Assembly (NCBI GenBank): GCA_029778945.1
Contig: JAKPBN010000444.1
Location: 1-64,000 of the forward strand
DNA: 64,000 bases
Source of the DNA: Spirochaetota bacterium
Lineage (GTDB): Bacteria; Spirochaetota; Spirochaetia; Treponematales; Rectinemataceae
Direction of reading: 5' to 3'
Shown here: positions 20,929-60,931 of the stretch, one piece after another
How positions within the stretch are numbered: the first letter of the stretch is position 1
Layout of the letters: each line of letters opens with the position of its first letter
Made by a program: the position numbers and the translations under genes
The notes under the pieces: model-generated
Seen by the model: only the letters and a program-made list of their open reading frames with translations
Told to the model about the DNA's origin: nothing
Databases searched by the model: none

Positions 20929-22905
20929 GTGATCAGCATAGAGGCGGCCCGGGACGGCTTTGTCGTCTCCGTGGGTGGGCAGAGGCTCCTAGTCCATGGC
21001 AGGCGCAGCCCCTGCATAGAGATCGGCCGGGCGGAGATATCCTTCCACCGCGGCAGGGGCGGCCTTTGCGCGCGGCGCAAGCGCTCATCCTGGCTGTCCC
21101 TCCGGGACTTTTCCGTGATCACCAACGGCCCCGAGCTCACGGTGATCGAGTTTGGCGGAATCCTGCGCATGTCCTTCCACCGGGAGGAGGAGCTCCTCCG
21201 GCTGGGCTTTGAATGCTCTGACCCCTCCTGGAACCTCTTTCGCATCCGCCTCCAGGCCCAGGCGGGGGAGCATATCTACGGCCTGGGGGAGGGGGGGGCA
21301 CCCCTCGACCTCAAGGGCAGGTCCAAGGCCCTCTGGGTCGCCGAGAAAGGCCGTCTCCATGGGGGCAGGGGAGGGCGCCTGGCCGCCCAGTTCCGTCCCG
21401 GGGCAAGCGGGGAAAAGGGCTTTGCCCTGCCCATACCGGCCTTTGTCTCCTCCAGGAACTATTGGTGCGCCCTGGACAGCCCCGCCTGGTCGGTCTTCGA
21501 TTTCCGCCGCCGCTCGACCACTACCATAGAGACCTGGACCCTTCCCTCCTCGATCATCGTGGGCTCCCGGCCAACTGCCCCTGAGACCGTACGGGAGCTC
21601 CGGCGGGTCCTCGGGGCCCAGCCCCTCCTGCCCTCCTGGATCTTCGATGGCATCTGCCTGGGCCTGGGCCCGGGCGCCATGGCGGAGGAGCTCGACGCGG
21701 CCCTGGCCGCAGGGGTCAAGCTCTCCTCGGTCTGGACCGATGGCCTCGAGGCCGGCAAGCCTGGCGCGGCCTTCCTCCGGCCCTCCTGGGACTGCGCCGC
21801 CGGCCCGGCCTTCGAGCGGGACCTGCGGCCCCTGGTCAGGCTCTGGCGGGAGCAAGGGATCCGCTGGCTGGGCTTTGCCGATCCCTATCTTGACCGCCAG
21901 GGTCCCCTCTATGCCGAGGCCAGCTCGAAGGGCTGGCTCGTGAAGTCGCCCTTAGGCGGGGACTATATCCTTCCGGTGGCGGGAGGCCACCTGGCCCTGG
22001 TCGACCTCACCCACCCGGCGGCCAGGGCCTGGCTCAAGGGCCTCCTCGCCTCAAGCCTCCTCGGCCTCGGGGCCGCAGGCTGGCTCGCCGATTCCGGAGG
22101 CCTCCTCCCGGCGGACGCCGTCCTCCATTCCGGGGCGGATGCCCGCCTGGTCCATAACCTCTGGCCCCTTCTCTGGGCCGGCCTCTCCAACGAGCTGATC
22201 CAGGAATCGGGCAAGGCCAGGGCGCTCTTCTTTGCGATGCGCTCGGGCTGGCTGGGCTCGGGGGCCTTCCTCCCCGCGGTATACGCCGGGGAGCGGAGCC
22301 TGGGCTTTGGGGCCGAGGACGGCCTTCCCGGCCTTGTCCCCGCTGCCCTCTCCCTCGGCCTTACGGGCATCTCCGCTTTTCATGCCGAGGTCGGGGGCAG
22401 GAAGCTAGGCCAGGCCAGGCAGGGCAAGGCCAGGGAATGCCTCTGGCGCTGGATGGAGCTCGCGGCCTTTTCCCCGGTCTTCCGCAGCCGCAGCCCCGGG
22501 GCGGGAGACTCGGATTTTCTGGTCCACCTGGCCCGGATGTCCGACATCCATGCGGCCCTCAAGCCCTACCACGAGACCGTGGCCGCGGAGGGCCAGAGCC
22601 TGGGCCTCCCGGACATCAGGCACCCCTACCTCCACTACGAGGCCGAGGAGGAGCTCCATCGCCGGGATTGGCAATACCTTTACGGCCGGGACCTCCTCGT
22701 GGCCCCCTCCCTGGCCGCGGGGGCCGAGCTCACCGAGGTCTACCTCCCCGCCGACGACTGGGTCCATCTCTGGTCCTCAAGGAATTTCCACGGAGGCCTC
22801 GTGACCGTGGACAGCCCCCTGGGCTTCCCCGCCGTCTTCTACCGCTCCTCCTCGCCCTTTGCCGCCCTCTTCGACTCCATCCGCCGCACCGCGAGGCGGC
22901 TCTGA
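20929..22905 (+). CDS. Glycoside hydrolase family 31, YihQ-like
   Basis: 658 residues from the GTG at 20929 (GGAGG 6 bp upstream). The C-terminal two thirds closely follow E. coli YihQ (sulfoquinovosidase) as I remember it: GWLADSGGLLP (nucleophile D388), HNLWPLLWA, LVPAALSLGLTG, and a final YLPADDWVHLW ... FPAVFYR. The acid/base position differs: YAGE (E455) where YihQ has WAGD. The substrate-pocket WAQDW segment of YihQ is VWTDGLE here. It should be an alpha-glycosidase, cytosolic by lack of signal peptide, but sulfoquinovose specificity is not supported. Confidence 0.8.
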   Translation: MISIEAARDGFVVSVGGQRLLVHGRRSPCIEIGRAEISFHRGRGGLCARRKRSSWLSLRDFSVITNGPELTVIEFGGILRMSFHREEELLRLGFECSDPSWNLFRIRLQAQAGEHIYGLGEGGAPLDLKGRSKALWVAEKGRLHGGRGGRLAAQFRPGASGEKGFALPIPAFVSSRNYWCALDSPAWSVFDFRRRSTTTIETWTLPSSIIVGSRPTAPETVRELRRVLGAQPLLPSWIFDGICLGLGPGAMAEELDAALAAGVKLSSVWTDGLEAGKPGAAFLRPSWDCAAGPAFERDLRPLVRLWREQGIRWLGFADPYLDRQGPLYAEASSKGWLVKSPLGGDYILPVAGGHLALVDLTHPAARAWLKGLLASSLLGLGAAGWLADSGGLLPADAVLHSGADARLVHNLWPLLWAGLSNELIQESGKARALFFAMRSGWLGSGAFLPAVYAGERSLGFGAEDGLPGLVPAALSLGLTGISAFHAEVGGRKLGQARQGKARECLWRWMELAAFSPVFRSRSPGAGDSDFLVHLARMSDIHAALKPYHETVAAEGQSLGLPDIRHPYLHYEAEEELHRRDWQYLYGRDLLVAPSLAAGAELTEVYLPADDWVHLWSSRNFHGGLVTVDSPLGFPAVFYRSSSPFAALFDSIRRTARRL

Positions 22906-22955
22906 TCTCCCCTGGGGGTGAGCTGGGGGTCCCGGCCGCCACCGTCCTTGCCCTG

Positions 22956-23738
22956 GTGGGCAACTTTCTCCTATCCCTGGGCATGGTCCTCCAGAAGCGC
23001 AATGTCTCCTGGCTCGATGCGGGCCGAGGCTGGCGGCGCTTCGCGAGCCCGGCCTTCGCCGGCTGGCTTGCGGGCTTTGTCCTCATGAACCTGGTGACGG
23101 TCTTTAACTATCTGGCCCTCCTGGGCCTACCGGCCAATCTAGTCTCCGCCCTGATCGGCTCCAGCGTGGCCTTTACGGCCCTCCTTACTGCCCTGGTCCT
23201 CAAGAGGCCCCCGGACCGGCGGGAAGTCCTCTGGTCGACCCTCCTCTTTGCCGCCCTGGCCTTCGCGGGTCTCCGGGGAGGACGGCCTGGGAGGAGCATC
23301 GACCTAGGGGCCCTGGTCGCCTTCCTCGCCCTCCCCCTCATCCTGGGCGGGGTCCTCCTCGTCTGGCGCCAGCGCCGGCCCCAGCGGCGGGGACGGGGCC
23401 TGGCCGTCCTCCTGGCCGCGGTCTCTGGCAGCCTTGGGGGCTACATGGTCCTCCCCATGAGGGCGGTCCAGATCGTCTCGGGTCCGGACATCCTGGCCTG
23501 GTTCGGGACTCCCTACCTCTACTTCTACCTGGCCGCGGGAGCCTCGTCCTTTGTCCTCCTGCAGCTGGCCTACAAGGATGGGGAGCTTGCGGCGGTGTCC
23601 CCGGCCTACTACGGCATCCAGGTCCTCTGGCCGGCCCTGGCGTCCTATGCCGTTCTGGGCACAGCTTTTGACCCCCTCCAAGTAGGCGGTCTTGCCCTGG
23701 TGGCCCTGTCGGTGTGGATGATCGCGAAGGGAAGGTGA
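22956..23738 (+). CDS. DMT-superfamily permease (EamA/NIPA-like)
   Basis: About 260 residues with eight to nine hydrophobic helices in two halves, as in drug/metabolite transporters. The start is doubtful: the first helix (VGNFLLSLGMVLQKRN) needs the GTG at 22956 or an upstream CTG at 22923; the ATG at 22983 would truncate it. LLGLPANLVSALIGSSVAFTALL and a late YYGIQVLWPALASY fit the fold. It follows the GH31 gene closely. The substrate is unknown. Confidence 0.6.
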   Translation: MGNFLLSLGMVLQKRNVSWLDAGRGWRRFASPAFAGWLAGFVLMNLVTVFNYLALLGLPANLVSALIGSSVAFTALLTALVLKRPPDRREVLWSTLLFAALAFAGLRGGRPGRSIDLGALVAFLALPLILGGVLLVWRQRRPQRRGRGLAVLLAAVSGSLGGYMVLPMRAVQIVSGPDILAWFGTPYLYFYLAAGASSFVLLQLAYKDGELAAVSPAYYGIQVLWPALASYAVLGTAFDPLQVGGLALVALSVWMIAKGR

Positions 23739-57055: not shown

Positions 57056-57720
57056 CTAGCCCTTGCTGCCTGAGGCTTCCCAGGAATAGAGGTCCTTGGC
57101 TCCCGAGGAGATCTTGACCGTGACTCGCTCTATGCTGGTCCTGGCCGCCTCCAGCTCGTTCTTGAGGCCGGCCAGGCAGCCCTCCACCAAGTCATGGCAG
57201 CGCACAATGTCCTCGTCCCTCTCGGCGTCGTTCTCAAAGTCCACAACGAGGTCGATCTTCTCTGGGCTGCCCTTGATGTGGAGGTCGACCCTGGCCATGG
57301 TCTGGAGGGACTTCACGAGCTGGAGGACTATTTCGGAAGGGATATCGGCCTCCCTCTGGTCTATCAGGGAGGCCACGAGGCTCCGCAGTTCCTCGTTGTC
57401 CCAGGGCTTGGGCAGGAATTTTGACACATTGGCCTGGTTGATGGCTCCCACAATGCTGTCAAAATCGCTATAGCCCGAGAGCATGACTCGTATTGTCCGG
57501 GGATACCTGTCCTTGACTATGCGGAGGAGCTCCGTCCCCCCATGTTGGGCATCCTCTGGTCTGAGATGATGACATCAAAGGGCTCCGCCTCCAGGAGCTT
57601 GAGGGCCGTGGCGGCGTCTATCGCCGTGGTGACCTTGTAGGCCTCGGACCTTAGCACCCGCTCGAGGCTGCGGAGGACGCTTTCCTCGTCATCGACCAAT
57701 AACAGCTTGAATGGGCGCAT
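57056..57720 (-). pseudogene. Response regulator split by a single-base frameshift
   Basis: The N-terminal part (57720-57517) has the receiver fold: LLLVDDEESVLRSL (D10, D11), ISDQRMPNMGG (phospho-acceptor D54). The frame then breaks in a run of six G (57541-57536, minus strand); reading one base back continues TELLRIVKDRYPRTIRVMLSGYSDF and FLPKPW (conserved Lys) through 57056. The C-terminal ~100 residues match no output domain I know. The break fits an assembly error, a G6/G7 slippage switch, or -1 frameshifting at G-GGG-GGA. It precedes the kinase gene by 2 bp. Confidence 0.8.
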
Positions 57721-57954: not shown

Positions 57955-59011
57955 ATGTTGACAGTTGGTCGCCTTGCCAAAGGAAGCCAGTCACGGTCCT
58001 TCAAGGCCGGTAGCCTCGTCCTGCTAGCCGTGCTCCTGTTCGCCGCTGCGGCTCCCGTTTACTCCCTCCCAGACTAAGGAGGTCAAGCTCCGCTATTCCC
58101 TCCTCTGGCCCGCTACTCACCCAATGACCAAGCTCGCTGGCGAGTGGGGAGCCGCTGTCGAGGCGGCCACCTCCGGCCGCGTCAAGGTCACCCTTTTCCC
58201 CGGCAATACCCTCACCCCGCCCATGCAGGCCTATGACAATGTGGCCAAGGGCATCGTCGACATGGCCGGCTGCCTCCTGGCCTACGCCCCTGGGCGCCTG
58301 CCCCTCTCCGAGGTCCTCCAGCAGCCCCTCGGATACAAGAACGGCTACCAGGCGACCACCCTCGCGAACGCCTTCTACAAGAAATTCCTGCCCAAGGAAT
58401 TCAATGACGTCCAGGTCATGTACCTCCATGGCGCCGCCCCTGGCTTTATCATGACCAAGAAGGCCGTGACCTCCATCAAGGACGTGAAGGGCCTCCGGAT
58501 CAAGGCCAATGCCGAGAACGCCGACATCGTCACCAACCTCGGCGCCGCCCCGGTCACCATGCCCGTCAGCGACGCCTACGACTCGGTCCAGCGCGGCGTC
58601 ATAGACGGCACCCTCTTCCCCATTGAGGCCCTCCAGGGCTACAAGATCGGCGAGGTCGTCAAGACCGTCATCCAGGACTACGGCATGTCCTACATGACCT
58701 CCATGTACGTCATCGTGAACAAGGACAAGTGGAACTCCATCGACCCCGCGGACCGCAAGGCCATTGAGAAGATCAATGACGAGTGGGTCGAGAAGACCGG
58801 CAAGCTCTGGGTCGAGCTCGACGCCAAGGCCAAGGACTTCGCCGTGAGCAAGGGCGTGACCTTCCTCGAGGTCTCGGCCGCCGACCAGGCCGCCACCGCC
58901 GCCATTATGAGGCCCATCCTGGACTCCTATGTGAAGATGGCCAATTCCAAGGGCCTGCCCGGCGACGCGGCCCTCAAGTTCTGCCTGGACTTTATCAAGA
59001 ACAGCAAGTAA
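57955..59011 (+). pseudogene. dctP: TRAP transporter solute-binding protein, frameshifted after the signal peptide
   Basis: ATG at 57955 with AAGGAGG upstream begins a signal peptide (AGSLVLLAVLLFAAAAPVYS). The frame hits TAA at 58075-58077. Reading one base further on restores KEVKLRYSLLWPATHPMTKL and the full DctP fold to 59011 (FPGNTLTPPMQAYDNVAKGIVD, GLRIKANAENADIV, GAAPVTMPVSDAYDSVQRGVIDG). A single-base insertion near 58068-58077 would explain this. It is real damage, a consensus error, or less likely programmed shifting. The ligand is probably a carboxylate. Confidence 0.82.
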
Positions 59012-59050: not shown

Positions 59051-59120
59051 AGTCACAACATATCCGCAGGCCCTGGTGGCCAAATCCGCACAACAAGACC
59101 CGCGGTTCGAGGGGACGAAG

Positions 59121-59624
59121 ATGAAGCATTTCCAGAGGTTCATCAAGGGCACGGACCTTGTGCTCTATTCGATAGCAGGCGCGGTGCTGATTGGCCTCGT
59201 GCTGATAACGCTCTGCGATGTGATCCTGCGCAATTTTGGCCATCCCATCACGGGCTCGATGGAGATCATCCAGTACGGCGGAGCCATTGTCTTTGCCTTT
59301 GCCGTCCCCTTCGCCACCACCCTGGGCGCGCAGATCATCGTGGACATCGTCACGGAGAAGCTGAGGCCCGGAGCCCAGCGCGTCATGTCGATCATCACGA
59401 GGATTGTCGGGGTCCTCCTCTTCCTCTTTGTCTCCTACAACTTCTACCTCTACGGCCTGGATGTCAGACGGACCGGCGAGCTCAGCGCCTCCTTCAAGAT
59501 CCCCTACTATCCGATCGTCTTCGCCATGGCCTTTAGCTTCCTCTTCCAGGCCCTTACCGTCCTGCTCGACCTGATCAACACACTGCGCGGCGCCGAAACC
59601 GGAGCTGAAGGAGAGGGGAAATGA
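59121..59624 (+). CDS. dctQ: TRAP transporter small permease subunit (DctQ)
   Basis: 167 residues from the ATG at 59121 (GAGGGG 6 bp upstream); an earlier in-frame ATG at 59076 lacks a ribosome site. Four helices with the DctQ pattern: VLITLCDVILRNFGHPITGSME, FAFAVPFATTLGAQIIVDIV and a final YYPIVFAMAFSFLFQAL. Its stop overlaps the dctM start by 4 bp. Confidence 0.87.
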   Translation: MKHFQRFIKGTDLVLYSIAGAVLIGLVLITLCDVILRNFGHPITGSMEIIQYGGAIVFAFAVPFATTLGAQIIVDIVTEKLRPGAQRVMSIITRIVGVLLFLFVSYNFYLYGLDVRRTGELSASFKIPYYPIVFAMAFSFLFQALTVLLDLINTLRGAETGAEGEGK

Positions 59625-60931
59625 GCTCTGAAGTCCTCGTCGGCATCATCGGCATAGTGGCGATGCTCCTTCTTTTCATGACCGGCCTCGAGATGGCCTA
59701 TTGCATGGTCTTGGTCGGCTTCTTCGGCTTCACGACCCTCATGTCCTTCATTCCCGCCTCGAACCTGGTGGTCAAGGACTTTTTCGACGCCTTCACGACC
59801 TACAGCTATACGGTCATACCTCTTTTCGTTCTGATGGGCGAATTCGCCGCGAACACGAACATAGCCAAGCGACTCTATGCCGGCGCCTACAAGTGGTTTG
59901 GCCATGTCCCTGGCGGCCTGGCCATGACGACCGTCGTAGGGGCCACCGCCTTCAAGGCGATGTGCGGCTCGACCCTCGCCACCGTGGGAACCTTCGCCGG
60001 CCTCGCGATCCCCGAGATGGACCGCTTCGGCTACAAGAAGGAGCTCTCCGCGGGCACCGTCGCCTCGGTAGGGACGATCGGCATGATCCTGCCCCCAAGC
60101 ACGGTCCTGATCCTCTATGGCCTCATCTGCGAGCAGTCGATCGGCCGCCTCTTCCTGGCCGGCATCATGCCCGCCCTCATGATCGCCTTCCTCTTTATGC
60201 TGGTCATCGCGGCCTGGGTCATGATCAAGCCGAATGTCGCCCCCCGGGGAGAGAAGTCTTCCTGGATCGAGCGCTTCAAGGCCCTGCCCGAGATGCTCGC
60301 GGTCCTCGTGGTGTTCGGCATCGTCATCGGCGGCATGATGTTCGGCTACTTCAGCCCTACCGAGGCCGGCACGATCGGCACCGTTGCGGTCTTCCTCCTG
60401 GCCCTGGTCCGCAGGGAAGTAAGCCTCACGATGATCAAGAAGTCCGTCAAGGGCGCGCTCAAGACCGCGGTCATGACCCTCATGCTGATCGCCGGCTCCT
60501 CGATCTTTGGCCACTTCCTCACGATCACCGAGATCCCCTTCCGCGCCGCGGATTGGGCGGCCTCCCTTCCCTTGCCCGCCTGGTCCATCATGGTCGTCAT
60601 CATCGTGATCTACCTTGTGGGCGGCTCCATCATGGACGACCTGGCCTTCATGGTCCTCGCGACGCCGATATTCTTTCCCACGGCCCTGGTCCTTGGCTTC
60701 GATCCGATCTGGTTTGGCATCATGGTCTCCATCACCCTCATGATCGGGGGCCTCATCCCGCCCGTCGCCCTGTACGTGTTCATAACCGGAAATATAACGG
60801 GCATACCCTTCAAGACAATCTACAAGGGGGTAGTCCCCTACCTGGGGGCCTTGGTTGTCGCCCTCATCTTGATCTTTGTCTTCCCCGAGATCATCACCTG
60901 GCTGCCGGACAAGCTGATGGGAAAGATGTGA
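59621..60931 (+). CDS. dctM: TRAP transporter large permease subunit (DctM)
   Basis: 436 residues, twelve or so helices. DctM motifs: PLFVLMGEFAANTNIAKRLY, GGLAMTTVVGATAFKAMCGS, GTVASVGTIGMILPPSTVLILYG and FSPTEAGTIGTVAVF, with GGLIPPVALYVF near the end. It carries the ion-coupled transport path for the acid bound by DctP. Confidence 0.92.
   Translation: MSSEVLVGIIGIVAMLLLFMTGLEMAYCMVLVGFFGFTTLMSFIPASNLVVKDFFDAFTTYSYTVIPLFVLMGEFAANTNIAKRLYAGAYKWFGHVPGGLAMTTVVGATAFKAMCGSTLATVGTFAGLAIPEMDRFGYKKELSAGTVASVGTIGMILPPSTVLILYGLICEQSIGRLFLAGIMPALMIAFLFMLVIAAWVMIKPNVAPRGEKSSWIERFKALPEMLAVLVVFGIVIGGMMFGYFSPTEAGTIGTVAVFLLALVRREVSLTMIKKSVKGALKTAVMTLMLIAGSSIFGHFLTITEIPFRAADWAASLPLPAWSIMVVIIVIYLVGGSIMDDLAFMVLATPIFFPTALVLGFDPIWFGIMVSITLMIGGLIPPVALYVFITGNITGIPFKTIYKGVVPYLGALVVALILIFVFPEIITWLPDKLMGKM

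Follow-up and report, generated by a model that had tools for sequence, protein, structure and literature searches.

The response regulator gene described here lies on the minus strand between positions 57720 and 57056 of the window, by which we mean the whole 64,000-nucleotide stretch that was analysed. In the deposited sequence its open reading frame switches at a run of six G residues (57541–57536), where the minus strand reads ATG GGG GGA CGG AGC TCC TCC GCA TAG and the first frame ends at the stop codon 57519–57517. A second frame continues from 57535 as TELLRIVKDRYPRTIRVMLSGYSDF, passes through a KPW motif and runs up to the stop codon at 57058–57056. An intact histidine kinase gene follows the regulator. 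The features of the regulator and kinase genes are these:

57517–57720, minus strand: response regulator, upstream piece (open reading frame), 67 residues ending MPNMGGRSSSA before the stop; matches PF00072 positions 2–57
57536–57541, minus strand: run of six G residues, the point of frame change, read from the sequence
57056–57535, minus strand: response regulator, downstream piece in the other frame, carrying the remaining receiver and the C-terminal region; matches PF00072 positions 59–110 and is colinear with relatives of 227–232 residues
54822–57053, minus strand: histidine kinase (dCache, HisKA and HATPase_c by Pfam), an intact open reading frame with a GTG start

The receiver profile PF00072, diagnostic of a CheY-like response regulator, extends over both pieces and is cut precisely at the break: the upstream piece matches profile positions 2–57 (E 9.7e-14) and the downstream piece positions 59–110 (E 9e-4), such that the two halves abut. 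The downstream piece retains the receiver hallmarks MLSGYSDF and KPW. A preliminary description of this DNA had placed a frame break at the G6 run; the split of the Pfam match at this point, and the continuity of relatives across it, confirm that assignment. Past the receiver, the C-terminal region (window positions 57056–57450) has no Pfam match; stand-alone regulators from other phyla (L033–L036) have tails of like length. The kinase GTG codon (57053) lies 2 nt past the regulator stop, a geometry that makes translational coupling of the two genes possible and, judged from their spacing, plausible. The kinase had been described as dependent on the regulator for such coupling; the 2-nt gap allows it, but the kinase carries its own AAGGG 6 nt upstream of its start, so that such dependence is at most a possibility.

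The closest full-length relatives, from Desulfobacter vibrioformis (L033), Omnitrophota (L034 and L036) and a further locus (L035), share 43–53% identity over the receiver, and all are continuous proteins. In D. vibrioformis the regulator gene adjoins a histidine kinase gene. Each of the 79 distinct homologous receivers at the loci that we fetched is continuous through the MPxMxG motif; none has an X_XXY_YYZ heptamer at this motif position, and no relative examined keeps a G tract there. Searches of the same family, the phylum and public genomes found no case in which the slippery site is conserved. Within the same genome, a paralogue (L002) encodes MPNMGGQELL with GGC GGC, and the assembly holds no second copy or allele with a longer tract or an intact frame. 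A genome of the same genus (G001) has no close counterpart, its best regulator match being 39% and no kinase match appearing at a cut-off of 1e-60. In another genome, G008, the TRAP operon is present and no regulator or kinase was found; there the contig runs for 855 bp upstream of the dctP match before ending. Because the relatives are continuous and none of the 79 receivers has the heptamer, the regulator was most likely a continuous gene ancestrally; of the sequences examined, this one alone has the slippery site.

Three elements around the break resemble parts of a −1 frameshifting signal:

57535–57541, minus strand: heptamer G_GGG_GGA, fitting X_XXY_YYZ in the upstream (zero) frame, read from the sequence
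57522–57534, minus strand: CGGAG-CTC-CTCCG hairpin, 0 nt past the heptamer, −5.2 kcal/mol (z −0.43), encoding part of T-E-L-L-R
57552–57557, minus strand: Shine–Dalgarno-like GAGGA, encoding part of the conserved Q-R-M, recognised by its spacing and found likewise in 8 of 79 homologues

Programmed −1 ribosomal frameshifting at G_GGG_GGA would restore the full-length regulator, with the 67-residue protein as the default product. The heptamer does sit in the zero frame exactly at the frame change (57541–57535), and the fit to X-XXY-YYZ that had been pointed out earlier is borne out. However, loss of one G from ATG GGG GGG ACG, which encodes the conserved Met-Gly-Gly-Thr, gives rise to G_GGG_GGA automatically. 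A slippery-looking heptamer is thus to be expected at any base loss from Met-Gly-Gly codons and lends recoding little support. Across the predicted coding segments of the window there are 73 in-frame X_XXY_YYZ heptamers and 12 further in-frame G_GGG_GGN heptamers, all of them in intact frames. In Escherichia coli, moreover, GGN codons shift less readily than UUN and AAN, and G_GG.G_GG.U gave the lowest value measured by Sharma et al. (PMC4066793).

The GAGG and AGGA of the Shine–Dalgarno-like element lie 12 and 11 nt before the second base of the motif, inside the stimulatory range of 6–17 nt, and the same spacing recurs in about 10% of the homologues, as by chance. The hairpin noted in the preliminary description exists directly after the heptamer, but it is weak: 55 of 200 shuffled sequences fold as well, and the longer downstream region also folds no better than shuffles (z −0.23). 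Roughly 9.5% of in-frame positions, in a gene set that includes some spurious open reading frames, have a 5-bp hairpin within the next 10 nt. By the empirical criteria of Sharma et al. (PMC4066793), a structure should begin 4–10 nt downstream and reach at least 7.6 kcal/mol; the hairpin here begins at 0 nt and has 5.2. The regulator site has in common with IS3-family and dnaX-type −1 signals an X_XXY_YYZ motif, an upstream Shine–Dalgarno-like element and some downstream structure, and differs from them in its low-efficiency GGN heptamer, a hairpin both too close and too weak, and its lack of conservation in relatives (PMC4066793). Lone breaks of this kind have been treated by the authors of GeneTack as indels or sequencing errors (PMC3711429); like their singleton frame transitions, the present break is isolated and absent from homologues, while differing in that it sits in a draft genome of unspecified read type. 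The signs of programmed frameshifting are weak, and we consider it very unlikely, the least credible of the readings discussed here; the preliminary description, which had listed it as an option, is not upheld on this point.

A second single-base frame break, missed in that description, lies some 530 bp away from that in the regulator, in the divergent plus-strand dctP gene for a TRAP solute-binding protein, and it alters how the remaining options are to be weighted. The TRAP genes are arranged as follows:

57955–58077, plus strand: dctP, upstream piece, with start and signal peptide and then a stop; its start region resembles that of the intact relative in G008 (L129)
58124–59011, plus strand: dctP, mature part of the TRAP solute-binding protein in another frame (PF03480), 79% identical to a 343-residue G008 protein
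59076–60931, plus strand: dctQ and dctM, TRAP permease subunits, intact by open reading frame and Pfam

A ribosome-binding-site-like sequence, the start at 57955 and the signal peptide of dctP share one frame, which ends at the stop at 58077; the mature protein is encoded in another, and the break is located near 58060–58077. The G008 counterpart (L129 15803–14772) is intact. Pairwise dN/dS values for the broken dctP and its neighbours range from 0.09 to 0.17 (0.14 for dctP against G008), so any real break must be recent.

In search of other breaks, 227 kb of the same genome was scanned with a codon-usage model that includes frameshift states. The genome is a draft of 504 contigs, 94.7% complete with 6.55% contamination. 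Its output comprised 65 ordinary gene junctions, and four further events were flagged. Besides the regulator, its calls in the window were ordinary gene junctions, except for one start at 22891; there (22891–22960) the downstream gene has no obvious ATG, GTG or TTG start near the upstream stop, and either an unusual start or a small indel could account for it. On the sampled contigs the scan flagged one junction of ambiguous nature in L106 and a histidine kinase on contig C375 (L121 4422–6790), a third single-base break, where HATPase_c (E 2e-26) is read in a different frame from HAMP and HisKA. Of 120 simulated single-base indels, 111 were recovered before filtering; after it the figure was 73 of 150, about half, and the dctP break, which we found by eye, was missed. 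With filtered recovery at about half and dctP missed, the rate is a lower bound: the 227 kb holds at least three breaks, dctP included, and probably more.

A further reading is phase variation, in which the length of the G tract would change by one base and so toggle the regulator on and off. There is precedent in Bordetella pertussis bvgS, which switches between C6 and C7 (PMC1891110); there, as here, a short G/C run within a two-component gene differs by one base and the functional product is lost, and loss of the regulator could perhaps be tolerated. For bvgS, however, both alleles were demonstrated in isolates (PMC1891110), whereas the regulator here is represented by a single consensus without a second allele and has non-tract breaks nearby, that in dctP included. 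The tract is just six bases long and is conserved in no relative, and longer runs are nothing unusual in the intact genes around it: the intact frames of the window contain 14 G/C runs of 7–8. We regard phase variation of the tract, which nothing but the short G6 run suggests, as improbable, and the broader proposal, that an environmental bacterium uses a slipping G6/G7 tract to turn a two-component regulator beside a TRAP uptake system on and off, as more improbable still. Across the window, GGGGGG runs number 79, about a quarter of the 307 expected from dinucleotide shuffles.

Two causes of a simple indel are left to be weighed. In the one that we favour, with rather better than even confidence, the regulator is an ordinary continuous gene from whose G run one base was dropped by a consensus or assembly error; the heptamer and hairpin would then be by-products of encoding the receiver motif D-x-R-M-P-x-M-x-G-T-E-L-L in G-rich codons. 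Several breaks in the draft, together with the coding character kept in both broken genes, favour such an error. Against it, the 14 intact runs indicate no systematic shortening of long G/C runs, and neither the dctP nor the C375 break lies at a long homopolymer. Real decay of the TRAP/two-component locus could equally leave two adjacent genes broken.

Next in rank, and rather unlikely, is a recent real inactivating single-base deletion, either a strain polymorphism or the onset of decay of the TRAP/two-component locus, which would cut the regulator short after about 60 residues and leave it inactive. The regulator and dctP, apparently one functional unit, are both broken within about 530 bp, and few other breaks were flagged in the 227-kb scan. 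Yet the kinase gene, dctQ and dctM are all intact, the broken genes still appear to be fully coding, with dctP–dctM strongly constrained, and the same kind of break occurs elsewhere in the draft, on C375. We infer a technical cause rather than a real mutation. The preliminary description had put a consensus error first; with intact relatives and other single-base breaks in the genome, such an error, or failing it a simple indel, is now the best-supported option.

A single-base loss without programmed meaning fits everything described here. The frame break is probably an artefact, pointing to an ordinary indel or consensus error and not to a built-in frameshift or on/off device. Annotation of this genome would, on this account, wrongly call three genes truncated: the regulator and dctP at this locus, and the histidine kinase on another contig.
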